64,000 bases of DNA from Abyssibius alkaniclasticus (GCF_020447305.1 NZ_CP095732.1:806001-870000), one strand, 5' to 3'. Counted from the stretch's first letter, positions 24,174-36,607 are shown. Program-made: numbers and translations. Notes: generated by a model not told the origin, from the sequence alone.

Positions 24174-25376
24174 CTATGCCAGCAGCCCGGCCAGCTCCGG
24201 CAAGACACTGGCCGTATCCTCGCCGCGCAATGCGTCGAGCTTTTTGGTCATCTTGCGGAATTCGCGGCGCAGATAGTCGATATGCGCAGGCCAATAGCCG
24301 ATGGATTCAGGCTCCAGCCGCGCGATGAACTTGCGAAACCGCGCGGGCATCACGCTGCCGGTATGGCGCGCGGCATGGTCGCGCCCAAGTGCTGCCAGAT
24401 CCACCGCCGCCTTTTCGCGCAGATCGGCGGGCAGGATCGTCACATCGTAAAAGGCGGGCAGTTGCAATGCGTGGAACTTCACCTTGTCATGGCTGATGCC
24501 GCAATCACGTTCAAGCGCCACAAACAGCTCTGCCAGCCGCGCAAGGTTGAGCGCCGAAACCGTGACCCCGGCCGTCAGCCTGACATGCGGGCAGGCCTTG
24601 CGCAATTGCGCGATATTGGCGACGAATTGCGCCCAGTCAAACCCGCTGCGCACAAGGGCACCGGCCGCATGGGCGGCATCAACGCTCGCCTCGATGCTGA
24701 CACTCTTGAACCGGTTCCACAGCGGCAGAAGCGGGGTTTTTTCCACCTCCAGCACCGAAAGATTGCTGTTATAGGCTAGGTTGATATCGGTGCGGCCCTC
24801 ATCGATCAGCCATTGCAGCATGTCGGCATTCTGGCGTTCGAGCAGCGGCTCGCCACCGGCAAAATAGAGCGTGCGCACCTCGTTGCCGATTTTTTGGAAC
24901 TGCGCCAGCCCGTCCTGAGCCGAGGAAAACGCCGAAAGCAGCGGCGTATCGCCCAGGTTGATCCCCAGCGCCCTGGCATCGGCAAACCAGCGCGACGATG
25001 CGCCGTGATGGCAGCTTCGGCAGCGAAAATTGCACAGGTTTGAATAACGCAGGTCCAGATGCACGGGGTTTTTCGGGCGTTGCCCGTCTTCCAGAATATC
25101 GGCAAAATTGCGGTTGAAATCCATGCGCAAACTGTTCAGCCCGGCATCTTCGGCCGACCAGCATTTCCAGCAGGCCTTTATCTTTTCGCCGCGCTCCATT
25201 GCGGCGCGAAGCTCGGCAAAGGGTTTGCCGTTCCAATGGCTTTCCATATCGCCATCGCGCAGCTTGCCAAGGTCGCCCTCATACAGACAACAGGGCCGCA
25301 CCTGCCCGGACGCGTTGACCGAAATCGACCCGAAGGGGGCGGCGCAAAGCGGGCGTTTGGGGCTGCTGTCACTCAT
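24174..25376 (-). CDS. Radical SAM protein with auxiliary Cys cluster (twitch/SPASM-like)
   Basis: 400 residues. The radical SAM motif CNFRCRSC gives Cys115, Cys119, Cys122 (CxxxCxxC). Before it lie further cysteines (Cys11, Cys29, Cys30, Cys69, Cys72) in the CAAPFGSISVNASGQVRPCC and KACWKCW context, a layout like the auxiliary-cluster 'twitch' region of peptide- or sugar-modifying radical SAM enzymes. Its ATG overlaps the stop of the glycosyltransferase gene by 4 bp (25373-25376), so the two are co-translated. The substrate is unknown; no precursor peptide was recognised nearby. Confidence 0.78.
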   Translation of the reverse strand: MSDSSPKRPLCAAPFGSISVNASGQVRPCCLYEGDLGKLRDGDMESHWNGKPFAELRAAMERGEKIKACWKCWSAEDAGLNSLRMDFNRNFADILEDGQRPKNPVHLDLRYSNLCNFRCRSCHHGASSRWFADARALGINLGDTPLLSAFSSAQDGLAQFQKIGNEVRTLYFAGGEPLLERQNADMLQWLIDEGRTDINLAYNSNLSVLEVEKTPLLPLWNRFKSVSIEASVDAAHAAGALVRSGFDWAQFVANIAQLRKACPHVRLTAGVTVSALNLARLAELFVALERDCGISHDKVKFHALQLPAFYDVTILPADLREKAAVDLAALGRDHAARHTGSVMPARFRKFIARLEPESIGYWPAHIDYLRREFRKMTKKLDALRGEDTASVLPELAGLLA

Positions 25377-27550
25377 GCCACCGCCTCGTGCTGGCGGCGG
25401 GTATAGGCCAGATCGGCAATGTAGCGCGCGGCAATTTCCGCGCCGTTTTCATTGCCAAGCCGCGCACAAGCGGCGCGCATATCGGCGCGGGCCGTCTCAT
25501 CCAGCAATGCCGACAACCCGTCATCCACCGCATGAATGTCAAAGCTCGACGCATGAAGCGCCATGCCGTTGATGGCGGCATATTGCGCGCGCCGGGCCTG
25601 CTCATCCTGCTCGCCCGCCTCGTTGGGAATGAACAGGCTGGGCAGGCCCGCGGCCAGAAGGTCGTGGTAAGAGTTATAGCCGACCGCGCTGATCGAACAG
25701 TCAAACCCCGCAAACAGCCGCGGCAGCGGAAATTCCTGCAAGCGCGTGACACCGGCGGGCAGATCTTGCGTTTTCTCGGCGATCAGCCAATCGGCAAGAA
25801 CCACATGCAGGCCATCGGTTGCGGCCAGCCGGTTCAGCACATGGGCGCGGACGCGCGACATGTCAAAATTATTGCCCGCGCCAAGCTGCACCAGCACAGC
25901 CAGACCGTCATCCGGCAGGCCCAGCGCGGCGCGTGCCTCGGCGCGGCTGAGAAGCTCCTCATCCTTCAGATAGCGCACCGGCGGCACGGCAAAGGTTTTG
26001 GCGCGGTGCCTGGTGGTTATGCCCCTGTCCCAGCTTTGCGCAATGTCCTGTGGTTCGATCACCGCGTCAAACGCTGCTTCGCGGCCAATCGTCTCCTCGC
26101 CCGTGCCGGGGGCCCAAAAGCCGCGCCGCATCCAGACTTTCCACAGATTCGCGTGCCGTGACAGGGCCGCGAGCATTCCGCCATAGGGCACATTGCCGTC
26201 GAACATGAAAACATCGGGCCGGTGAAAGGTCAGCGCCGCCTGCACCTCGCGTTCCAGATGGATGTTCCACTCCTCGAACGGCATCCCGATGGATTTGTGA
26301 TAGGGCAGATATTCGGCGTGAATCCCGTCGCGCGCCGCAAGGCCAAAGGCTTTGGACAGAGTCAGGAATACGGGTTCAACCCGTTCGGGCAGCCGCCGTG
26401 CCAGTGCCAGCGAGCGGGTCAGATGCCCCATGCCCACCCCGTTTGAGGTAAAGAACATCACCTTTGGCGCGCGGCCTGGCCGCTGCGGTGCCGCCACCTG
26501 CCGGCCTTTTGGCGGGCCGATCAGGTTTTTGACGCGCGCAACCAGCAGCTTTATGTCGCCAAATTCGCGCGCCCAGGCGGTGCTGCGCTCGGCCTGGGCC
26601 AAAAAGCGCGGCGGGCTGGAATGCAGGTCCAACACCGTATCGCGCACGGCATCCGGCGTGCAGTAAACCGCGCCATCGCCAAAAAGCGGGCGGAAATGCG
26701 GGGCCAGAACCGGCACGGCACCGCTGGCCATCGCCTCCAGAATCGAGCGGCCATAGGCCTCGACCCAATGCGGATGGTGGTGGTAGACGAACATATCGAC
26801 CTGCGCCAGAAAGGCGCGCGGGCTTTGGGCGTTGAAGGGCGAAACCTGCCAGTTGCGCGGCAGCCGGCCCACAATCGCCTCCAGCTCCGGCCCCCAGCCC
26901 ATAAGCCGCACATCAATGCGCGGATCATCGGGATAGGCGGCCAGAAAGCTTTCACGGTCCTGCGGCCATTTCATCGGATCGGGGCGCGAATGGCGGCCAA
27001 TGCGCGGCCTTGCCCCCATGAAGCCCGCGCGCGGCAGCGCCCAGGTATCGCAATCCACCACATTCAGCCAGTCTTGCGCATGAAGTTTGGGGGCATTGGC
27101 GGCGCGGGCAAACTGCGCACGCACCTTTGGGCCGACCGGCGCCCATTCAACATCGCCAAACAACGCGGTGGTGACCGTATCGATCTGCGCCCAGTCGTAA
27201 TAGGGGGTGCCGGTCGCATCCATCAGCGGATGATGGGCGACAAGAAGGGTTCGCCCGGCCTTGATGCGCGGCGGGGTCTGCGGCCAGCGCGTAAAAACCT
27301 GCGGGTGGTGCAAAAGGCAAAGCCGCGCCTCGACCGCGGTATCGGGCGGCACCAGCCAAGCCTTGCCCGCATCAAGCAGCGCGCGAATTTCGGGGTGAAC
27401 CGGGTGCGGATAGCGCAGCACCTCGCCCGCCATCGCCATAAGCGCCACACGATAGCCCGCATTGGCAAGTGCTGCCAGCTCGCCTGCCAAAGCGGTCGAG
27501 CTACCGCCGGGAAAGCGCAGATCACCAACCGCGATAATGTCAAAATGCAT
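25373..27550 (-). CDS. Two-domain glycosyltransferase
   Basis: 725 residues. The N-terminal half (to about 330) resembles GT4-like enzymes: FDIIAVGDLRFPGGSSTALAGE at the start, shown in part as DLRFPGGSSTAL, and HHHPHWVEAYGRSILEAMAS, the donor-site E-x7-E-like segment. The second half is a GT-B/GT28 (MurG-like) domain: FFTSNGVGMGHLTRSLALA, then ISAVGYNSYHDLLAAGLPSL. I set the start at ATG 27550. The frame stays open to 28081, but that extension is low-complexity and lies opposite a better plus-strand gene. Two active sites suggest addition of two sugars. Confidence 0.75.
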   Translation of the reverse strand: MHFDIIAVGDLRFPGGSSTALAGELAALANAGYRVALMAMAGEVLRYPHPVHPEIRALLDAGKAWLVPPDTAVEARLCLLHHPQVFTRWPQTPPRIKAGRTLLVAHHPLMDATGTPYYDWAQIDTVTTALFGDVEWAPVGPKVRAQFARAANAPKLHAQDWLNVVDCDTWALPRAGFMGARPRIGRHSRPDPMKWPQDRESFLAAYPDDPRIDVRLMGWGPELEAIVGRLPRNWQVSPFNAQSPRAFLAQVDMFVYHHHPHWVEAYGRSILEAMASGAVPVLAPHFRPLFGDGAVYCTPDAVRDTVLDLHSSPPRFLAQAERSTAWAREFGDIKLLVARVKNLIGPPKGRQVAAPQRPGRAPKVMFFTSNGVGMGHLTRSLALARRLPERVEPVFLTLSKAFGLAARDGIHAEYLPYHKSIGMPFEEWNIHLEREVQAALTFHRPDVFMFDGNVPYGGMLAALSRHANLWKVWMRRGFWAPGTGEETIGREAAFDAVIEPQDIAQSWDRGITTRHRAKTFAVPPVRYLKDEELLSRAEARAALGLPDDGLAVLVQLGAGNNFDMSRVRAHVLNRLAATDGLHVVLADWLIAEKTQDLPAGVTRLQEFPLPRLFAGFDCSISAVGYNSYHDLLAAGLPSLFIPNEAGEQDEQARRAQYAAINGMALHASSFDIHAVDDGLSALLDETARADMRAACARLGNENGAEIAARYIADLAYTRRQHEAVA

Positions 27551-27639
27551 ACTTGCCCCGGGCCATGTGTCGCGCCATCCTGTTGCAATATTATGCCAGA
27601 AATCCATCAGGACCAAACACCAAACCGGGGCCGCGCCAC

Positions 27640-28107
27640 ATGACAGCACTTGGCAAGAGATTTGCCGCCGCATTGGAGGCCGCCCGCGCGGCGCGCGCAG
27701 CCAACATCCCGGCCAGCGCCCCCGCCAGCACTTCCGCCACGCCAGCCGAAGCACCCCCGCTGAACAGTCGCCGCATGGTGGTTGCCCTGATGTTCGGCCA
27801 AACCCCGGCAGAGGTGGAAACCGCGCTGCTGGCCTTGCGCAAGATCGCGGCGGAAAACGATCATGGCATTGTGATCGTGACCGACCGGCAGGATATAGAA
27901 ATTTTCCAGCACCCGGATTGTATTGCCGAATATCTGCCTGCAATTGACAGGCTTGCCAGCCTGCCCAACCCGCATGACCCCTATCTCTATCTGCAAGACC
28001 GGCTGGCGATTTTGCTGCGCAAATGGGAGCCGGTGCAGGTGCTGCCTTTTGGCGACCGCTCCGTTGATATGTTTGCCGCATTTAAGGCCGCGCAGCCCAG
28101 GGCGTAG
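27640..28107 (+). CDS. Conserved-looking protein of unknown function
   Basis: 155 residues. An Ala/Ser/Pro-rich N-terminal region (about 1-45) leads to a compact alpha/beta stretch: MVVALMFGQTPAEVETALLALRKIA, of which the core VVALMFGQTPAEVETAL is most regular, then HGIVIVTDRQDIEIF, a Rossmann-like strand-helix-strand pattern. It ends with a basic/aromatic helix. It diverges from the glycosyltransferase with 89 bp between starts, so they may share control. I recognise no family; a link to glycan synthesis is only suggested by position. An ATG at 27553 would overlap the glycosyltransferase region and is less likely. Confidence 0.6.
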   Translation: MTALGKRFAAALEAARAARAANIPASAPASTSATPAEAPPLNSRRMVVALMFGQTPAEVETALLALRKIAAENDHGIVIVTDRQDIEIFQHPDCIAEYLPAIDRLASLPNPHDPYLYLQDRLAILLRKWEPVQVLPFGDRSVDMFAAFKAAQPRA

Positions 28108-28160
28108 CCGAAAAATTTTTGTCGCTATATATTAAATGCGCGAAATAGATGGTAATATCG

Positions 28161-28190
28161 CCCGATTGAAGCCCTGACGGGGCAATCGGG
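28161..28190 (+). promoter_or_regulatory. Hairpin overlapping the ribosome-binding region of the next gene
   Basis: Perfect 8-bp stem CCCGATTG / CAATCGGG (28161-28168, 28183-28190) with an inner CCC/GGG stem. It ends 7 bp before ATG 28198 and includes part of the G-rich stretch that would be the ribosome-binding site. Confidence 0.5.
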
Positions 28191-28197
28191 GGCAGTC

Positions 28198-28521
28198 ATG
28201 GCCAAGAAAATTTCAGCATGGGCAATGGTCTTGCGGGCGTTCTTGCTGACGCTGTTTACCGGCTCGCAGCTCAGCCAGACGCAGGCGCAGGGCAACCCCG
28301 ATAACCAGGCCTGGACCTATGCCGCCTCGATTGGCACAGCAGCGGCGATGCGCGAATATCTGCGCATGTATCCAAACGGTGCCCATATAGAGGAAGCCAT
28401 TCGCGTGCTTATTGCAAGTGGTGAGATTGGGCCTGGAACAACGCCCTATGTTCGTCCGGTTGAACAGCTGAGCGCGCCGCCGAATCTTGTTCCGCCCATC
28501 GTCGCAGAGACGCCATATTAA
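28198..28521 (+). CDS. Small secreted protein with a YL-x-x-YP motif
   Basis: 107 residues. A signal peptide (about 1-31, ending QTQAQG) is followed by WTYAASIGTAAAMREYLRMYPNG, whose key part is REYLRMYPNGAH. That W..A...GT..A...YL..YP.G pattern is a tandem-repeat module I associate with secreted caspase-domain (C14) and Sel1 proteins of proteobacteria. The rest is Pro-rich. Only one copy of the module is present. A caspase-Sel1 gene lies 3 kb away on the other strand. The function is unknown. Confidence 0.65.
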   Translation: MAKKISAWAMVLRAFLLTLFTGSQLSQTQAQGNPDNQAWTYAASIGTAAAMREYLRMYPNGAHIEEAIRVLIASGEIGPGTTPYVRPVEQLSAPPNLVPPIVAETPY

Positions 28522-28543
28522 AGCGCAATCTCGGGAATTGGTC

Positions 28544-29182
28544 ATGAAAAGAACCTCACTACGGATTACGTCTTTCATGCTAATTGCAGTCGCCGTGGCT
28601 GGCTGTGATTTTCGTATGGTTGATGATCAAATGCGAGATCTTTCAACCTATTACGAGGAGGGGCGAAAAACGCCAGAGAATGGTCAACTGATTTCGCTTG
28701 AGGGTAGCTACACACAGGCTTTCAATACAGCCGTGCGCAATCTGCGCGCTCAGGACTTTCAGATTGTTGAAGCAGATGTATCCGCAGGGCGGATTGTAGC
28801 CCGTAGCAATAAAACAAACCTGGTTTCCTGCGGAGCGTTGCAATCCGGTCCATTGGGCAGCGTCGCAATTTATGCGGCCAATGCGCCCGTCTCCATTATC
28901 GAAGTGCCGGGCGCTCGTGGGGGCTCGACTTTTGTTCGCCGTGAGTTTTCAAGCATGAGCGATGTGACAATCTTGATTCGCGCTGACGCGACACAAGGCG
29001 GTGCAATCTTTGCAACAATAGCGGAACAGCATAGTGCTACAATCCGAACGGTCCAGCTCAACGACAATGCCGTTATCTACAATGAAACCTTGACGTTTGA
29101 CGGGGCAAGTCGCGCCAAGTTTTCGCGTGGTGTGATCTGTGGTTCAGCGCGCGCAACCCGCGCTATAATCAGGCAAAGTTAG
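28544..29182 (+). CDS. Putative lipoprotein of unknown function
   Basis: 212 residues. The N-terminal signal ends in the lipobox VAGC (Cys21), so a membrane-anchored periplasmic lipoprotein is expected. The mature part looks beta-rich, with no motif I recognise. Codon use is clearly more A+T-rich than in all neighbours (ATT, AAT, ACA, GTA frequent), which points to recent transfer. It follows the small secreted protein by 22 bp. ATG 28544 is chosen because it gives a proper signal peptide. Confidence 0.65.
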   Translation: MKRTSLRITSFMLIAVAVAGCDFRMVDDQMRDLSTYYEEGRKTPENGQLISLEGSYTQAFNTAVRNLRAQDFQIVEADVSAGRIVARSNKTNLVSCGALQSGPLGSVAIYAANAPVSIIEVPGARGGSTFVRREFSSMSDVTILIRADATQGGAIFATIAEQHSATIRTVQLNDNAVIYNETLTFDGASRAKFSRGVICGSARATRAIIRQS

Positions 29183-29196
29183 CAGTTTTGCGCTAT

Positions 29197-30069
29197 TTAG
29201 CTAGCCGAACGCCCCCAGGCCCAGCGCGCCGCTTCGCGCCAGTTTTCGGCTGAAATCGCCCCGGCGGCCCCCAGCGGCGCATAAATTTCGGCCAGCGCGT
29301 GGTAATGGCCCAGATCGGCAATGGCAAAGCGGTTCTGGCGGAAGAAGGCGGCGTTCTGGCGTGACAGGCGCACAATTTCCAGGCCCAAAGCCGCATTTGC
29401 CCGCCGGGTAAGGTCGTGCAGGCGGTCCTGCATCTTGCGCCCGCCGGCCAATGCAAATTTCTCGCGGCCCAATTCCTGATCCGCGTTTTGGCTGCCTAGC
29501 ATGGCGACAAGCGCACCCAGATGCCACCAATCGGCATAGGGCTGATCGCTGCCATAGCTGGCGGCAATTGTCAGTGCAACCTTGGGCGCGCCCTGTTTCA
29601 GCAGCGCAAGCACGTGGTCAAACCCGGCCAGAAACGCCGGGCGCGAGGCATAGTTGAATGCCCAGTCGCACTGGCATAGCGGCATCGTGGCGCTGGGCGG
29701 CAGGCCGGCCTTGGGCATTTCTTCGCCAATAAAGGCGATCAGGTCGCGCCTCTGCCAAAGCTGCGGGCCGGGGCTGGCGGCAAGCGCGCCGGTAACAGCG
29801 TTGCGCGCAAGCCAGCCAATGCGATAGCCCGCCCGCAGCAGCACGGCATCCGGCTCGACCTGCCCGAATTCGGGTTTTGGCAGCACATCGGGCGGCATCA
29901 TCACAACATAGGCCCCCTCCATCGCCTTTAGCGCCGCCAATTGCGCATTGCGGCTGGATGAAGGCACCAGATGGGCGCGCGGCAGGGCCTGACGCAGACG
30001 AAAGCCATAGCCGCGTGGCGGGTTGGGCGGCATCAGCGCAAGGGCTTCAAACCTGGCCAGGGGCTTCAT
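29197..30069 (-). CDS. Unknown protein, last gene of the caspase/glycosyltransferase operon
   Basis: 290 residues, no signal peptide and no recognisable domain. It has alternating hydrophobic strands at the start (GAYVVMMPPDVL) and a helical, Arg/Ala-rich C-terminal part. The pattern around residues 20-150 could be a degenerate GT-A-like fold, but no DxD is clear. Its ATG overlaps the preceding glycosyltransferase-like gene by 4 bp, so the two products likely act together. Confidence 0.6.
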   Translation of the reverse strand: MKPLARFEALALMPPNPPRGYGFRLRQALPRAHLVPSSSRNAQLAALKAMEGAYVVMMPPDVLPKPEFGQVEPDAVLLRAGYRIGWLARNAVTGALAASPGPQLWQRRDLIAFIGEEMPKAGLPPSATMPLCQCDWAFNYASRPAFLAGFDHVLALLKQGAPKVALTIAASYGSDQPYADWWHLGALVAMLGSQNADQELGREKFALAGGRKMQDRLHDLTRRANAALGLEIVRLSRQNAAFFRQNRFAIADLGHYHALAEIYAPLGAAGAISAENWREAARWAWGRSAS

Positions 30070-31361
30070 TCGGCATCAGCCAGCGACAGGGGGTCGAACC
30101 CGCGTTCGACCGCCAGCCAGTCCAGCGTGTCGGCGCGCATATTCTCGAACTGGTCATCGGGTGACAGCGCGCGCAGCAGGTTGGCCATATGATGCGGGGC
30201 AAAACGGTCGCCGCGCAAAACCGCCTGTTCATAGAGCGCCAGCGCGGCTTCGGTATCCACCCCGCCATTCTGCCCATGCTCGGCCATGCGGCCAAGATTG
30301 TTGAATGAGGCGGCCACCTCGTTCAGCACGCCCACATCGAACAGGCGGCGTGCGCGGGCGTGGTCGGCGGCAATGCCGTGGCCTTTCAGATACATATAGC
30401 CAAAGCTGTCCGACATCCACCAATCCATCGGCTCGGGCCCGGTTTCCTTGAACATGCGGCTTTCGGCGGCGGATAAGTCAAACACTTCAATGCCGAAATG
30501 CGTGGCAAGCTGCGCGCCAAGGGCGGCGCATTCCTCGGCCAGCTCATCGGGCGACCAGCGAAAGCCGGTATAGCGGCAGGTGGCGCCGCCCTTGGAAAAG
30601 CGCCGCGCGATCAGGTCGGCCCAGAATCTGTCAAACCACGGGTAAGAGTTGATAGTGGTGAAATCCCAGTCGCTTGCCTGGGTCATGAACACGCCAAGCC
30701 GGGTGCCATACATCAGCCACAGCCCGTTTTCGCAATCGGCCCCAACACTGCAACAGGCGACCAGCCGGCGGATCTGCCGGTCGGGCAGGCTGCGCAAATC
30801 CAGCCGATGATGCACGCCACCCCCGCCGCCAAGCGACAGGCGCACCCCTTCGCGAAAGCCGCAGCGGAAGGCGTGGTAAGGGGTCAGTGCCGGGTTCACA
30901 TCGGAATGCACCTCGGGCACATGCACGCGCGGGCTACCCTTGCCCGCCGCCATATGCGCCCCGATCGCATGGTCGATAGACACCTCTCCCTTTGGCGAAA
31001 GCTCGTGCGTGCGCATTTCGCGGATCATCTTGCCGGGCCAGCATTTCAGGCTGCCATTGCCATAGACCTGCCCGTTGACCACATTCCGGCTGGGCCATTC
31101 CACGCGGCAATTCGGGCGGATGAACGCATCCGGCACATCAAGCTCGAAGAAGGACGGGCGCACCAGAGTGTCGGCATCAACGGTTATCACCTGCGCGCCG
31201 CCGCCCGCTTTCAGCGCCGCCTTGTGGCAGGCATCCAACCCGATCACACCATGCACGCGCTTGGCCCAGGGGGCTTTGGCCAGCAGATCGGCCCAGTAGT
31301 CATCGGCCCAGGGCTCGTCGATCGACATGAAGACAATCGGCAGATCACGCACAAGCGCCAT
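30066..31361 (-). CDS. Glycosyltransferase-like protein with Sel1-type tail
   Basis: 431 residues. The N-terminal half reads like a GT-A glycosyltransferase: VFMSIDEPWADDYWADLL, then VITVDADTLVRPSFFEL, with a DxD metal motif (DAD). The C-terminal part has Sel1-like repeats (FGYMYLKGHGIAADHARARRLF and ASFNNLGRMAEHGQNG). This mirrors the Sel1 repeats in the upstream caspase-like protein, 12 bp away. It overlaps the next gene by 4 bp. Sugar donor and acceptor are unknown. The start at 31361 has only a weak ribosome-binding site. Confidence 0.62.
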   Translation of the reverse strand: MALVRDLPIVFMSIDEPWADDYWADLLAKAPWAKRVHGVIGLDACHKAALKAGGGAQVITVDADTLVRPSFFELDVPDAFIRPNCRVEWPSRNVVNGQVYGNGSLKCWPGKMIREMRTHELSPKGEVSIDHAIGAHMAAGKGSPRVHVPEVHSDVNPALTPYHAFRCGFREGVRLSLGGGGGVHHRLDLRSLPDRQIRRLVACCSVGADCENGLWLMYGTRLGVFMTQASDWDFTTINSYPWFDRFWADLIARRFSKGGATCRYTGFRWSPDELAEECAALGAQLATHFGIEVFDLSAAESRMFKETGPEPMDWWMSDSFGYMYLKGHGIAADHARARRLFDVGVLNEVAASFNNLGRMAEHGQNGGVDTEAALALYEQAVLRGDRFAPHHMANLLRALSPDDQFENMRADTLDWLAVERGFDPLSLADAE

Positions 31362-31373
31362 AAATTCGCGGCC

Positions 31374-33431
31374 CTAACGGTTGACGAGGTTGAAATCCAG
31401 AACGCCGTATTCGGCGATCCAGGCTTCGGCCGTGGCGCGCCCGGCTTCAAGCTGTGCGGCGCTCATGCGCGCCTCGAGCGCGGCCATCTTTTCGGCGGCC
31501 GACTCGGCCACCTGGCGCGAACCGCTTGTGTCGCGCAGCAAGCCGCCCTCATAGGCGATCATGTAATTGGCGTAAGCGGCGGGCAGGTCTTCCTCGACCC
31601 CTTCAAACCCGGCCAGCATATCGCCGATGAACTCATAGGCATTCACAAAGTTGCGTTGGGCCGACAGGCGGAAATAGGCCAGCGCCTGGCGGCCATCGGC
31701 ATCAACCCCCCAGCCCTTCATGAACATGCGGCCAAGCTGCAAGGGCGCATAGGGGTTGCCCTCATCCGTGGCGCGGGTCAGCCAGTAAATCGCCTGCGGG
31801 TAGTTGCGCGTAACCCCCTCGCCCCGCAAATAGGCAAGCCCGACATTGTTCATCGCATCTGACTGGCCGTTGGCGGCGGCGCTCAGATAAAAGCCCAGCG
31901 CGCGGCCCTCATCGGCCTCAACGCCCTGCCCGCGGCGGTAAATATCGCCAAGTGCGGTGACGGCATTGACCTGCCCGTTCTGCGCGGCCACCTCGAACCA
32001 GCGGCGCGCTTCGGCATAGCTTTGCGGCACGCCCCAGCCTTCGCGGTAAAACTCGCCCAGCGCCACGCGCAGATTGCCCATGCCCGCCAGCGCGCCAAGG
32101 CGCAGATATTCGGCGGCGCGGGCTTCATCTATTTCCACGCCACGGCCAATGCGATAGGCTTCGGCAAGGTCGCCATAGGCGGTGGCATAGCCCCGATCGG
32201 CGGCAAGCTGGAAGAAGAACAGCGCCTCTTCGTCGCGCCCCGCAATGCTGAGCGCGCGGGCCAAAAGCCCGGTAATGCGGGCATTGCCCGGGTCATCCTC
32301 CAGCGCCTGAATACAGGCACGAATGGCGGCGCGGGTATTGACCAGATCATGCGGCACACCTTCAACAAGCGCATAGGGGTCATTGTCCGGCGTTGCCAGA
32401 ATATCGCATTGGGTTATCAGCTGCGTCAGCCCGCCCGGCACAATCTGCGCGGTGTCATCGGTGGCAATCTCGATGGCGCCCAGCGGCTCGACACCGGATT
32501 CCTCGAGCAATTGCAACTGGCGGCTGGCCACGGGCGCAAGCTGGTCTTCGGGAAAAAGCTCTACGAAAAGCTGAAAATCGGTCTGGTCGGCGCTGGAGCG
32601 AATGGTGTTCCATGTCACCGAGGCAAGGTTGATATTGCCGGTAACCGCGGCCTGGGTTTCGGCGTCAAGCACAATCGCCGGGTTCGGGTCGAGCCAGATT
32701 TCCTCGGTCGCATTGTCAATATACCACGGGGTCTGTTCGCCATTCGTGGCGCGGCGCACCTTGGCGCGCACCAGGCGCAGGACATCGCGAAAATCCTGGC
32801 GCGGGCCTTCCAGCGTGCTGGCCAGCGCGGCGGTGAACGGGCTGTTTGCACCGGCCCCGTCAAGCGCAACAGCGCCGGGCGAGGTGGCGTAGGAAATTAT
32901 CGTATTTGGCGGCGCCTCGGTCAAAGCCAGCCCCACCCCCGAAGCCTGACCTTCGCCAAAGGGTGAATTGCGGCAGGCATCCAGCACGATCACCAGCTTG
33001 TCGGCCTGCAACTGCGCCAGCTGGTCGATAAGCGTGGGCAGCGCAAAGGCCTGTTCCTGCAAGAAGCTGCGCGAGGTCGGGCGGATATCGGCGGGCAGCA
33101 GATAGTTGATGCCTTCATGCTGAACCCCGTGGCCGGCATAGAAAAACAGGCCAAGCTCGGCGCCCTGCTCATTGGCCGCAATCTCGGCAAAGGTGGCGGC
33201 GACATCGGCGCGGGTCGCATCTTCCAGCAGGTAAATCGAAAACCCCATCGATGAAAGCGCCCCGGCCATTGCGCGGGCATCGTTCACCGTATTGGGCAGC
33301 GTCACGATTCCGGGGTCATCATATACCGAATTTCCGACAATCACCGCCCAGCGGCTTTGCGCCTGGCTGGCTGTGCCCAGAATCAGGGCAATGAACAGTG
33401 TGATTGCACGCATGAATGAGAGGCGGAGCAT
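31374..33431 (-). CDS. Secreted caspase family (C14) protease with Sel1 repeats
   Basis: 685 residues. Signal peptide (about 1-25, ending ASQAQ) sends it to the periplasm or outside. The caspase p20 domain follows: WAVIVGNSVYDD, catalytic His101 in FFYAGHGVQ, and catalytic Cys153 in LDACRNSPF. From about residue 390 there are roughly six Sel1 repeats, for example ALGEFYREGWGVPQSYAEA. Such proteins are often called orthocaspases or metacaspase-like. I chose ATG 33431 because GAAGG lies 9 bases before it. It is 86 bp after the UDP-glucose dehydrogenase gene and probably in its operon. Confidence 0.85.
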   Translation of the reverse strand: MLRLSFMRAITLFIALILGTASQAQSRWAVIVGNSVYDDPGIVTLPNTVNDARAMAGALSSMGFSIYLLEDATRADVAATFAEIAANEQGAELGLFFYAGHGVQHEGINYLLPADIRPTSRSFLQEQAFALPTLIDQLAQLQADKLVIVLDACRNSPFGEGQASGVGLALTEAPPNTIISYATSPGAVALDGAGANSPFTAALASTLEGPRQDFRDVLRLVRAKVRRATNGEQTPWYIDNATEEIWLDPNPAIVLDAETQAAVTGNINLASVTWNTIRSSADQTDFQLFVELFPEDQLAPVASRQLQLLEESGVEPLGAIEIATDDTAQIVPGGLTQLITQCDILATPDNDPYALVEGVPHDLVNTRAAIRACIQALEDDPGNARITGLLARALSIAGRDEEALFFFQLAADRGYATAYGDLAEAYRIGRGVEIDEARAAEYLRLGALAGMGNLRVALGEFYREGWGVPQSYAEARRWFEVAAQNGQVNAVTALGDIYRRGQGVEADEGRALGFYLSAAANGQSDAMNNVGLAYLRGEGVTRNYPQAIYWLTRATDEGNPYAPLQLGRMFMKGWGVDADGRQALAYFRLSAQRNFVNAYEFIGDMLAGFEGVEEDLPAAYANYMIAYEGGLLRDTSGSRQVAESAAEKMAALEARMSAAQLEAGRATAEAWIAEYGVLDFNLVNR

Positions 33432-33517
33432 GGCGATTTACCTTCAATCGAATCAATGAAAATGCGAATTTGACCAGCGCCCAGCCTAGCGCGTTGCCTG
33501 AAAAAAATCGAGATTTA

Positions 33518-34807
33518 TCAGGGCCGCCCCAGCGAAACATAGTCAAACCCGGCAGCCCGTGCCGTGGCCGGGTTCAGCAGATTGCGCAGATCGACCAGCC
33601 TTGGATGGCGCATCAGCCCGGCCAGAAGCGCCAGATCAAGCCTTGCGAAATCCGGCCATTCGGTCAGGATGACCAGCGCATCGGCGCCGCGCGCGGCGGC
33701 CTCGGCCCCATCCGCCCAGCCCACCCCCGGCAAGGCGCTGCGCGCCGCGTCCGCGGCCATCGGGTCATAGGCGACCACATCCGCCCCGGCCGCTTGCAGG
33801 GCCGGAAGGATCACCAGCGCCGGGCTGTTGCGCAGATCATCGGTGCCCGCCTTGAAGGTGACCCCCAGAACCGCAATGCGCTGGCCCTGCACATTGCCGG
33901 CGCAATGCGCAACAACCAGCGCCGCCATCCGCGCCATATGCGCTTCGTTGGAGGCGATCACCGCATCGACGATGCCCATATTCTGCCCGGCCGCGCGCCC
34001 CTGCCGGGCAAGCGCGCGAATATCCTTGGGAAAGCATGACCCGCCAATCCCCGGCCCGGCGCGCAGAAACTGCGGCCCGATGCGGCTGTCAAGGCCGACG
34101 CCCTGCATCACCGCATCGATATCGGCGCCCGTGAACCGCGCCAGCCCGGCAATTTCATTGACCAGAGCCAGCCGCGTGGCCAGCAGGGTGTTGGCGGCAT
34201 ATTTCATCAGTTCCGCACTGGCGCTGCTGCATATTTGCAGGCGGTTTTCGGGCAGGGCCATAGGGGCGTAAACCGCCCGGCCCAGCGCGGCCCCCGCCGC
34301 CTCATCCGCGCCAATGACCACGCGTTCGGGCGCAAGAAAATCGTGCAGCGCCGAGCCCTGGCGCATGAATTCGGGGTTGAACAGTGCCACGCCCTGCCAG
34401 TCGGGCCGCCTTGCGCGCAGCCGTGCCGCCAGCGCAGCGGTTGTGCCCACCGGCACGGTCGAGCGGACCATGATGGCATCGGGCAGGCGCGCAAGCCCGG
34501 CCAGCGCATCCAGCGCCGCATGAAGCTGGCGCAAATCGGCGGCGCCGTCGGCCAGGGCCGGGGTGCCGACCGCCAGAATGGCAAGCTCTGCCGACACCGG
34601 CGTGGCGCCAAAATCCAGCGCGCCGCTGGCCATCGTTTCATGCAGCAGCGCATCGAGCCCCGGCTCGTGCAGCGGGCATGTGCCGCCTTGCAGCAGGGCC
34701 AAGCGCGCGGGGTTGGTTTCAACCGCGCTGACCCTGTGGCCGAGTCTGGCACATGCGGCGGCCGTAACCAGACCGACATAGCCGCAGCCGTATACCGCAA
34801 GTCGCAT
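33518..34807 (-). CDS. UDP-glucose 6-dehydrogenase
   Basis: Oxidises UDP-glucose to UDP-glucuronate, a precursor of acidic polysaccharides. 429 residues of the UDPGDH family: Rossmann start VYGCGYVGLVTAAACARLGH, NPEFMRQGSALHDF, and the catalytic Cys258 in GPGIGGSCFPKDI. The C-terminal UDP-binding domain is complete. It leads the minus-strand group with the caspase-like and glycosyltransferase-like genes and is divergent from a sulfotransferase gene, so an acidic, perhaps sulfated, surface glycan is likely. Confidence 0.92.
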   Translation of the reverse strand: MRLAVYGCGYVGLVTAAACARLGHRVSAVETNPARLALLQGGTCPLHEPGLDALLHETMASGALDFGATPVSAELAILAVGTPALADGAADLRQLHAALDALAGLARLPDAIMVRSTVPVGTTAALAARLRARRPDWQGVALFNPEFMRQGSALHDFLAPERVVIGADEAAGAALGRAVYAPMALPENRLQICSSASAELMKYAANTLLATRLALVNEIAGLARFTGADIDAVMQGVGLDSRIGPQFLRAGPGIGGSCFPKDIRALARQGRAAGQNMGIVDAVIASNEAHMARMAALVVAHCAGNVQGQRIAVLGVTFKAGTDDLRNSPALVILPALQAAGADVVAYDPMAADAARSALPGVGWADGAEAAARGADALVILTEWPDFARLDLALLAGLMRHPRLVDLRNLLNPATARAAGFDYVSLGRP

Positions 34808-34884
34808 ATGCGCCCCTTCCGAAACCCGTGGCGAAGCCTGTGAAATGCGCTTCGCGCCGTCAACCCCAAAGCGATGCTTGCCGT

Positions 34885-34913
34885 TTGACCCGCAGGCAGG
34901 GCGCGGCTAGTCT
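34885..34913 (+). promoter_or_regulatory. Candidate sigma-70 promoter of the sulfotransferase gene
   Basis: TTGACC (34885-34890), 17-bp spacer, TAGTCT (34908-34913), 24 bp before ATG 34938. It probably also starts the downstream operon. Confidence 0.5.
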
Positions 34914-34937
34914 GGCGCAAAACAGCCAAGGCGCGCG

Positions 34938-35666
34938 ATGATCATCTCCAACAGCCGCAAATTCATCTTTGTGCATATCCACAAGGCGGCGGGCACCGCG
35001 CTGAAAGTGGCGTTGCAGCCGCATCTGGCCTGGAACGATCTTGTGATCGGCGGCTCGCAGTTTGGCGATGCGGTTGCCCCCGCCTATGAAACCCATTTCG
35101 GGCTGACAAAACATGGCGGCATCCAGCAGATCATCGATCAGTGCGGCGCGGCGCTGGTGAAAGACTATTTCAGCTTTGCCATTGTGCGCGACCCCGTGGC
35201 GCGCTCCGTTTCGCTTTACAACTACATTGCCGAGTTTTTCCGCTACAAGGGCCAGTCCTTGGGCTTGCAGCATGATGATCTGGTGATCGCGGCGCGCCAG
35301 GAACAGCTGGAGATGACCCCGAATTTGAAGTTTCTCGACTGGCCCGCCACGCGCGCCTACTATCTGAGCCCGAATTTCAGCGACTTTATTCGCAGCAAAG
35401 AGCTGGAAAGCGACAGCGGCTTTCAGTTGCAGATCGATGCGCTGCAAAACCAGTCCGGCACGCTGATGGTTGATAAAGTCATCAAATACGAGGCGCTTTT
35501 GCGCGATCTGCCCGCCCTATGGGACAAGATCGGCACGCGCTTCATGCTGCCCGTTGAGAACCGCCCGAAATTCTACCGCCAGCCGCTTGCCGATGTCAGC
35601 GATGATGACCGTGCCTTTTTGCGCACGCGTTTCGCCGATGATTATCTGGCGCTGGATTACGCCTGA
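34938..35666 (+). CDS. Sulfotransferase family protein
   Basis: 242 residues of the carbohydrate-sulfotransferase type (sulfotransfer_2). KFIFVHIHKAAGTALK is the PAPS 5'-phosphosulfate loop, and FAIVRDPVARSVSLYNYI is the 3'-phosphate-binding motif with its Arg and Ser. It likely sulfates a surface glycan, in keeping with the divergent UDP-glucose dehydrogenase gene. It precedes the BKACE gene by 14 bp, but the functional link to that operon is doubtful. Confidence 0.85.
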   Translation: MIISNSRKFIFVHIHKAAGTALKVALQPHLAWNDLVIGGSQFGDAVAPAYETHFGLTKHGGIQQIIDQCGAALVKDYFSFAIVRDPVARSVSLYNYIAEFFRYKGQSLGLQHDDLVIAARQEQLEMTPNLKFLDWPATRAYYLSPNFSDFIRSKELESDSGFQLQIDALQNQSGTLMVDKVIKYEALLRDLPALWDKIGTRFMLPVENRPKFYRQPLADVSDDDRAFLRTRFADDYLALDYA

Positions 35667-35680
35667 ACAAAGCGAACACC

Positions 35681-36607
35681 ATGCAGAATGTCATTCTTAG
35701 CTGCGCCATAACCGGCTCGATCCATACGCCCAGCATGTCGCCCTACCTGCCCTTCGCGGCGGATGATATTGCCAGGCAGGCGGTTGATGCCGCGCGCCAG
35801 GGGGCCGCGATTTTGCACCTGCACGCGCGCGACCCGGCCAATGGCCGCCCCTCTGCCAGCCTTGCACATTGGCGGGGGTTCTTGCCGCAGATCGCCACGG
35901 GCTGCGATGCGGTGATCAACATGACAACCGGCGGCTCGGCCGTGATGAGCATTCAGCAGCGGCTGGCCGCACCGCTGGCGATTGCGCCGGAAATGTGTTC
36001 GCTCAACTTGGGCAGCATGAATTTCGCGCTCTACCCGATGGCCGCAAAAATCACCGATTGGCGGTTTGACTGGGAAAAGCCGTTTCTGGAAAACTCCGAC
36101 GATCTGGTCTTCAAGAACACCCCGCGCGACATTGCGTATATTCTGGCGGAAATGGGCCAGAAGCGCGGCGCGCGATTCGAGTTTGAGTGCTACGATATTT
36201 CCCATCTGGATATGCTGGCGCATTTCGTTGCCCGGGGTCTGGTGCAGGGCAAGCTGTTCATCCAGTTCGTGTTCGGCGTGCTGGGCGGCATGGCGGCGGT
36301 GCCCGAAAATCTGCTTCACATGAAGGCCACAGCCGACCGGCTTTTTGGCGAAGGTTACGAATTTTCGGTGCTGGCCGCGGGCCGCCAGCAAATGCTGATG
36401 GGTGAACAGGCGGTTAAGATGGGCGGCAATGTGCGCGTGGGTCTGGAAGACAATCTGATGCTTGAAAAGGGCGTTTTGGCGCGCAACAACGCCGAATTGG
36501 TCGCAAAAATGCGTTACATTGTAACCGAAAGCGGGCGCGAGCTGGCCTCGGCCGATGAAGCCCGCGCCCGGCTTGGCCTGAAGGGCTGCGCAGCGGTGGC
36601 GCTATGA
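35681..36607 (+). CDS. 3-keto-5-aminohexanoate cleavage (BKACE) family protein
   Basis: 308 residues. BKACE enzymes exchange a beta-keto acid with acetyl-CoA to give acetoacetate and an acyl-CoA. Zinc ligands His46 and His48 are in ILHLHARDP, MTTGG follows, and VRVGLEDN near residue 252 is the family signature. The beta-keto acid used here is unknown; the family covers many (carnitine, beta-keto-adipate and amino-hexanoate types). It overlaps the GNAT gene by 4 bp and leads a five-gene overlapped operon. Confidence 0.9.
   Translation: MQNVILSCAITGSIHTPSMSPYLPFAADDIARQAVDAARQGAAILHLHARDPANGRPSASLAHWRGFLPQIATGCDAVINMTTGGSAVMSIQQRLAAPLAIAPEMCSLNLGSMNFALYPMAAKITDWRFDWEKPFLENSDDLVFKNTPRDIAYILAEMGQKRGARFEFECYDISHLDMLAHFVARGLVQGKLFIQFVFGVLGGMAAVPENLLHMKATADRLFGEGYEFSVLAAGRQQMLMGEQAVKMGGNVRVGLEDNLMLEKGVLARNNAELVAKMRYIVTESGRELASADEARARLGLKGCAAVAL

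Follow-up and report, generated by a model that had tools for sequence, protein, structure and literature searches.

The caspase homologues of prokaryotes, including the orthocaspases (MEROPS C14), have a MALT1-like paracaspase fold and carry the His/Cys dyad of their p20-type domain in AGHG and LDACRN motifs. To our knowledge, bacterial caspases are common and few have a known job beyond cell death; the published orthocaspase work consulted here, as titles and abstracts, centres on cyanobacteria and cell death. Here we describe a caspase encoded in a 64,000-nucleotide stretch of the Abyssibius alkaniclasticus genome (GCF_020447305.1, NZ_CP095732.1:806001-870000; hereafter the window, with positions counted from its first letter). 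The gene (31374-33431, minus strand) encodes a protein of 685 amino acids, which possesses the same p20-type domain and dyad (His101/Cys153) as the known homologues. In contrast to the orthocaspases, the window caspase is predicted to be exported, is fused to Sel1 repeats, and is linked to glycosyltransferase genes and often to genes of the type VI secretion system (T6SS). Comparison across genomes shows that this locus represents a cassette conserved among alphaproteobacteria, the core of which is formed by the Sel1-containing caspase and a glycosyltransferase termed GT300, commonly together with the small protein h325.

Other described systems resemble parts of this cassette. The AlgK/ExoR-type proteins of exopolysaccharide systems, to which weak NCBIfam matches are found, likewise are exported, carry Sel1 repeats and belong to a glycan locus, whereas here no alginate or succinoglycan genes are present and Sel1 is joined to a protease. 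GT300, the second core component (25373-27550, minus strand, 725 amino acids, start codon set by homologues), is a two-domain GT-B-like glycosyltransferase, comparable with the two-domain transferases that combine GT4 and GT28/UGT. Both its halves match GT-B enzymes in PDB profiles, the C-terminal half those of the GT28/UGT-like kind (E=2e-9) and the N-terminal half those of the GT4-like kind (E=5e-3). Unlike in the known transferases of this architecture, the GT300 fusion is kept together with a caspase. The exporter, polymerase and priming genes of a Wzx/Wzy- or ABC-type polysaccharide locus have no counterpart in 24174-34807, as Pfam detects no flippase/polymerase, ABC exporter or priming transferase domain in the cassette genes of this interval (distant genes unchecked).

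In the window caspase, Pfam identifies the caspase domain (Peptidase_C14, PF00656, E=5e-34) and four Sel1 repeats (E=2e-30). The dyad is kept in 16 of the 17 aligned homologues; the exception is one Sinorhizobium meliloti copy (L086 23072-25216), in which both catalytic residues are lost and alongside which a caspase-SUMF1-type protein is encoded. A first-pass annotation of the window had proposed a signal-peptide-bearing caspase with a His/Cys dyad and Sel1 repeats, and the Pfam matches and residues agree with it; the Sec-type signal peptides of the caspases are predictions, read from the sequences by inspection. Among solved caspase folds, the caspase profile is nearest to the MALT1 paracaspases (E=5e-23, versus 2e-8 for caspase-7). 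MALT1 cleaves after Arg. The MALT1-like profile, combined with this general knowledge, suggests that the caspase cleaves after a basic residue.

The first-pass annotation had described a head-to-tail unit at 29197-34807, composed of a UDP-glucose dehydrogenase (UGDH), the caspase, a GT-A-type glycosyltransferase (GT-A) and an unknown protein. All four open reading frames lie on the minus strand and are free of internal stops, and their positions and junctions (86, 12 and -4 bp) are reproduced. The boundaries of the unit, by contrast, were drawn wrongly, since two members of the conserved core, GT300 and h325, lie outside 29197-34807; the genes at 24174-29182, which are related and belong to the same neighbourhood, had been overlooked. 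GT-A homologues were counted among 394 genomes of the family, the source genome itself being a single contig of 3.2 Mb. GT-A is present in seven other genomes, in all of which the caspase and GT300 are encoded beside it, and the ninth GT-A locus is that of Rhodobacter sp. CZR27. The caspase is thus kept beside a glycosyltransferase in relatives, within a few kb in all nine GT-A loci. The proposed unit therefore stands in respect of the caspase and the transferase; UGDH is not a conserved member, as it adjoins the cassette only here and is absent there from all eight other GT-A loci.

Plasmids and the family were also searched with GT300 and the caspase, which added Rhizobium, Sinorhizobium, Shinella, Paracoccus zhejiangensis and further family genomes and led to a linkage set of 32 loci from Rhodobacteraceae and Rhizobiaceae. 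In 30 of these 32 loci, and in both families, no more than 4 kb separates the caspase from GT300. Across families, the transferase partner of the caspase is GT300 and not the window GT-A. Pairwise distances of the caspase and GT300 are correlated (Mantel r=0.61, 0 of 5000 permutations), partly through shared species history, so that the correlation does not alone separate co-evolution from common ancestry; in the trees of both proteins, the own clade forms a monophyletic group. Tight spacing is common by itself and UGDH is not conserved at the locus, as would be expected if the four genes were chance neighbours in a general polysaccharide region, but this explanation is contradicted by the caspase/GT300 linkage and by the correlated distances, and we regard it as extremely improbable. 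The two linkage exceptions are a contig of 9.5 kb and an odd hit in genome G075. The latter (C5:576031-577827) is a GT300-like sequence that shares 64% identity with the CZR27 protein; it is located in an open frame of 14111 codons with no caspase nearby, and is possibly an assembly or frame artefact.

T6SS genes, a link that the first-pass annotation did not include, are found within 10 kb of the cassette in 12 of the 32 loci, representing at least five separate lineages, and several of these cassettes are located directly beside vgrG. In these 12 loci, the cassette lies inside or beside T6SS accessory and effector islands (vgrG, DUF2169, PAAR/DUF4150, TagF). The annotated neighbours in Rhizobium etli CIAT 652, R. 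beringeri, R. lentis, Sinorhizobium americanum, P. zhejiangensis and Rhodobacter CZR27 include vgrG and PAAR (DUF4150)/DUF2169 genes. In particular, vgrG is the direct neighbour of GT300 in R. etli CIAT 652, R. beringeri and R. lentis; in CZR27, the genes for the caspase and GT300 continue into DUF2169/PAAR genes, and the cassette of P. zhejiangensis is followed by a T6SS cluster. In addition, TssC is encoded in all eight GT-A carriers, versus 101 of the 394 family genomes (p=1.5e-5), and in 11 of the 16 full-length GT300 carriers of the family (p=2.7e-4), in tests that treat genera as independent. The parts of the cassette are of known kinds, and their combination and linkage to T6SS appear to be undescribed within the searched literature. 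A survey of plasmid T6SSs, a T6SS review and a study of the R. etli T6SS do not mention a caspase or a glycosyltransferase in their full text. No description of a caspase/glycosyltransferase cassette at a T6SS was found in full-text literature, mostly outside subscription journals, so novelty is unproven.

Caspases are a recurrent feature of the T6SS loci of the family. The source genome encodes a second caspase of 523 amino acids (~1177316-1178887, G000:C1) about 6.5 kb from tssC in its T6SS locus, and similar caspases lie no more than about 10 kb from tssC in G005, G007, G009, G013, G254 (C5) and G267 (C78). The same T6SS contains a second TssC-like (VipB) domain (G000:C1:1199914-1200771) within an open frame of 1668 codons, and many relatives are alike in this respect.

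Our preferred reading, to which we assign a probability of roughly 0.4, is that the cassette serves the T6SS, or the envelope surrounding it, as an accessory, cytosolic transferases and an exported caspase acting in sequence. Several observations weigh against it. The own T6SS is located about 350 kb from the cassette, so that the window copy is outside the T6SS locus; Shinella, S. meliloti and Rhizobium sp. 32-5/1 harbor caspase and GT300 on plasmids without TssC, and 5 of the 16 GT300 carriers of the family lack TssC. To these are added the share of species history in the caspase/GT300 distance correlation and the dyad-less S. meliloti copy. From the plasmid-borne cassettes and the carriers without TssC it follows that the T6SS is not required for the cassette. 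In contrast to the T6SS islands that it resembles, the cassette is thus neither T6SS-requiring nor T6SS-restricted, and it is devoid of structural or delivery domains.

The same plasmids, where no T6SS shares the replicon with the cassette, would suit a T6SS-independent envelope-glycan module that merely shares genomic islands, its transferases decorating a surface or periplasmic glycoconjugate and its caspase serving as a periplasmic quality-control or stress protease. The Shinella cassettes have heparinase-like and sugar-uptake genes as neighbours; these genes, the distance of the own cassette from the T6SS and the sole UGDH next door agree with such a module, which we consider rather unlikely given the recurrence of nearby T6SS genes in at least five lineages, at times directly at vgrG, and the absence of transport or polymerisation genes from the cassette. 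In Rhizobium, Paracoccus and CZR27, the cassette lies among or next to vgrG and PAAR/DUF2169 effector genes, which could also point to T6SS cargo or self-protection, in which the enzymes would either modify a T6SS effector or spike ahead of firing or confer immunity by modifying the envelope of the producer itself. However, Pfam finds no PAAR, Rhs or MIX-type delivery domain on the window proteins, the Sec signal of the caspase argues against cytosolic loading, and the cassette is single and conserved, whereas effector-immunity pairs are polymorphic; this role is quite improbable.

For the preferred reading, that of an accessory to the T6SS or the surrounding envelope, the following order of events can be proposed. 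We infer that the caspase, the small secreted protein and the lipoprotein encoded near it are exported and that the transferases are cytosolic. With UDP-sugars as donors, the soluble transferases would attach a short glycan to one protein or a small number of proteins. The cassette contains no gene for a flippase, polymerase, ligase or oligosaccharyltransferase, for which reason the glycan is expected to be short and probably protein-borne. In the source genome, UDP-glucuronate from the neighbouring UGDH is a possible sugar supply. The exported caspase would then act on a target in the periplasm and cleave it after a basic residue, by which the target may be matured or a block released, and the lipoprotein and the small secreted protein are likely partners or substrates of the caspase. 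The Sel1 repeats of both the protease and GT-A had been taken as a sign that the two proteins are partners. This suggestion is not upheld: the caspase is predicted to be exported, no signal peptide can be read from the GT-A sequence, and the GT-As of the sister subtype lack Sel1, all of which makes a Sel1-Sel1 partnership unlikely. Protease and transferases would instead act sequentially on opposite sides of the membrane.

A dedicated T6SS-tied pathway of protein glycosylation plus proteolysis is a tentative and, in our estimate, unlikely proposal, according to which cytosolic transferases would modify a T6SS or envelope protein, and the Sel1-caspase would process it in the periplasm, licensing or tuning firing. 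In some lineages, radical-SAM chemistry may join the cytosolic modification in such a pathway. If true, this would assign a new role to bacterial caspases and reveal a new way of controlling the T6SS. In two bacterial orders, the caspase has remained next to one and the same transferase, repeatedly at vgrG, which points to a concrete and testable physiological role. The T6SS of Rhizobium etli matters for symbiosis and competition (PMC10215855, PMC11385963). Sequenced strains of R. etli carry the cassette adjoining the T6SS, and the role is therefore testable in this species.

GT-A, a subtype gene of the cassette (30066-31361, minus strand, 431 amino acids), is composed of a GT-A domain (residues 4-311) and C-terminal Sel1 repeats. 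In the first subtype, the caspase and GT-A are arranged head to tail in all five own-clade loci (the window, G254, G267, G386 and G141), whereas the second subtype (CZR27, G263, G242 and G412) contains the GT-A without Sel1. The AlphaFold2 model, built with the window sequence and 58 viral relatives, is mostly confident for residues 1-310 (pLDDT mostly >90) and matches GT-A enzymes at a VIA Z of about 9-10.6 over ~145 residues. The PBCV-1 capsid transferase, the WrtF fucosyltransferase and beta-1,4-galactosyltransferases share this fold and the DxD motif with the window protein, which differs from them in its low identity (6-14%) and, in the own clade, in its Sel1 tail. The DxD motif (D62-A-D64, residues 62-64) is invariant in nine bacterial sequences, and both Asp residues are invariant in 59 window-plus-viral sequences. 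In the single GT-A protein, Sel1 falls just below the Pfam cut-off (28.5 versus 30.7 bits); the family profile matches solved Sel1 structures at E=9e-18, with the repeats starting after about residue 300. The model, the conserved motif and the family profile are in line with the earlier description of a DxD glycosyltransferase-like protein with Sel1. The "unknown" fourth protein (29197-30069, minus strand, 290 amino acids) is present as described and is not of unknown kind: it is a degenerate paralogue of GT-A (E=6e-7) that has lost the DxD motif, the aligned position reading MPPD. Its AlphaFold2 model is of moderate quality (pLDDT 72, pTM 0.49), and the structures that it matches, weakly (Z about 6-8), are of GT-A type.

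In IMG/VR contigs, at least 582 relatives of the GT-A domain are present, and identity in the best 80 kept is 32-41%. Neither the bacterial domains nor those of five viral GT-As checked belong to a Pfam or PHROGs family, PHROGs matching only the Sel1 part of the window protein; phage records gave no match to it, and scans of genome contigs with GT-A and with the caspase yielded no usable relatives. The GT-A family occurs widely in aquatic viruses and has no name in Pfam or PHROGs, and the GT-A branch exposes a transferase family common to bacteria and these viruses. Of the 80 best viral loci, 53 have a homologue of the window radical-SAM enzyme within 5.5 kb of GT-A, as a raw, uncontrolled count. 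In aquatic viruses, one to four tandem SPASM radical-SAM genes often come after GT-A (IMG/VR loci L108-L187). Bacterial and viral sequences separate in the GT-A tree, but long branches meet, and a phage origin is neither supported nor excluded. No viral relative of GT300 was found. The frequency of GT-A and radical-SAM homologues in aquatic viruses, together with PADLOC matches of the caspase (E=1e-14) and of the radical-SAM enzyme to viperin (weak, E=5e-7), could indicate anti-phage defence or programmed cell death, with the caspase as an abortive-infection protease and the transferase and radical-SAM genes derived from phages or directed against them. Both matches, however, are partial and at superfamily level, PADLOC assigns the cassette to no complete known anti-phage system, and the cassette genes include no sensor, nuclease or cyclase; moreover, the caspase is predicted to be exported, and SPASM and the gene context suit a modification enzyme better than viperin. 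Such a function is very improbable.

GT-A, its degenerate copy, the small secreted protein, the lipoprotein and the SPASM radical-SAM enzyme are lineage additions to the core. The radical-SAM enzyme (24174-25376, minus strand; Pfam SPASM, E=6e-9) overlaps GT300 by 4 bp, and homologues of weak similarity are encoded beside the cassette in P. zhejiangensis, G113 and G008. On the other side of GT300, after a gap of 89 bp, the divergent gene of the small conserved protein h325 (27640-28107, plus strand) is located, homologues of which recur adjoining GT300 in Rhizobiaceae and Rhodobacteraceae loci. It is followed by the gene of a small signal-peptide protein with a WxxA...YLxxxPxG motif (28198-28521, plus strand), which has homologues in G254, G141 and G386 and analogues in the second-subtype loci CZR27, G263, G412 and G242. 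The lipoprotein (28544-29182, plus strand; lipobox AVAGC) has homologues in G254, G267, G386 and G141, and the loci of the second subtype carry lipoproteins too. In CZR27, a gene annotated 'peptidase M14' (L066 25361-26431) is GT-B-type glycosyltransferase-like by sequence, and the second subtype may therefore possess a further transferase.

Promoter and terminator scans of 28000-35700 gave signals at or below chance, and no operon boundary is drawn from them. Repeats flanking the cassette are limited to chance-like matches, and the G+C profile has no clear island edge around it. At the right-hand side, UGDH (33518-34807, minus strand, 429 amino acids; UDPG_MGDP_dh domains in Pfam) lies 86 bp upstream of the caspase and is the sole UGDH of the source genome. 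Of the other cassettes, only that of P. zhejiangensis is flanked by a nucleotide-sugar dehydrogenase, which is a different one, 31% identical and on the opposite strand. Divergent from UGDH is the gene of a sulfotransferase-like protein (34938-35666, plus strand; Pfam Sulfotransfer_2), a 37% identical homologue of which adjoins the caspase in G254.

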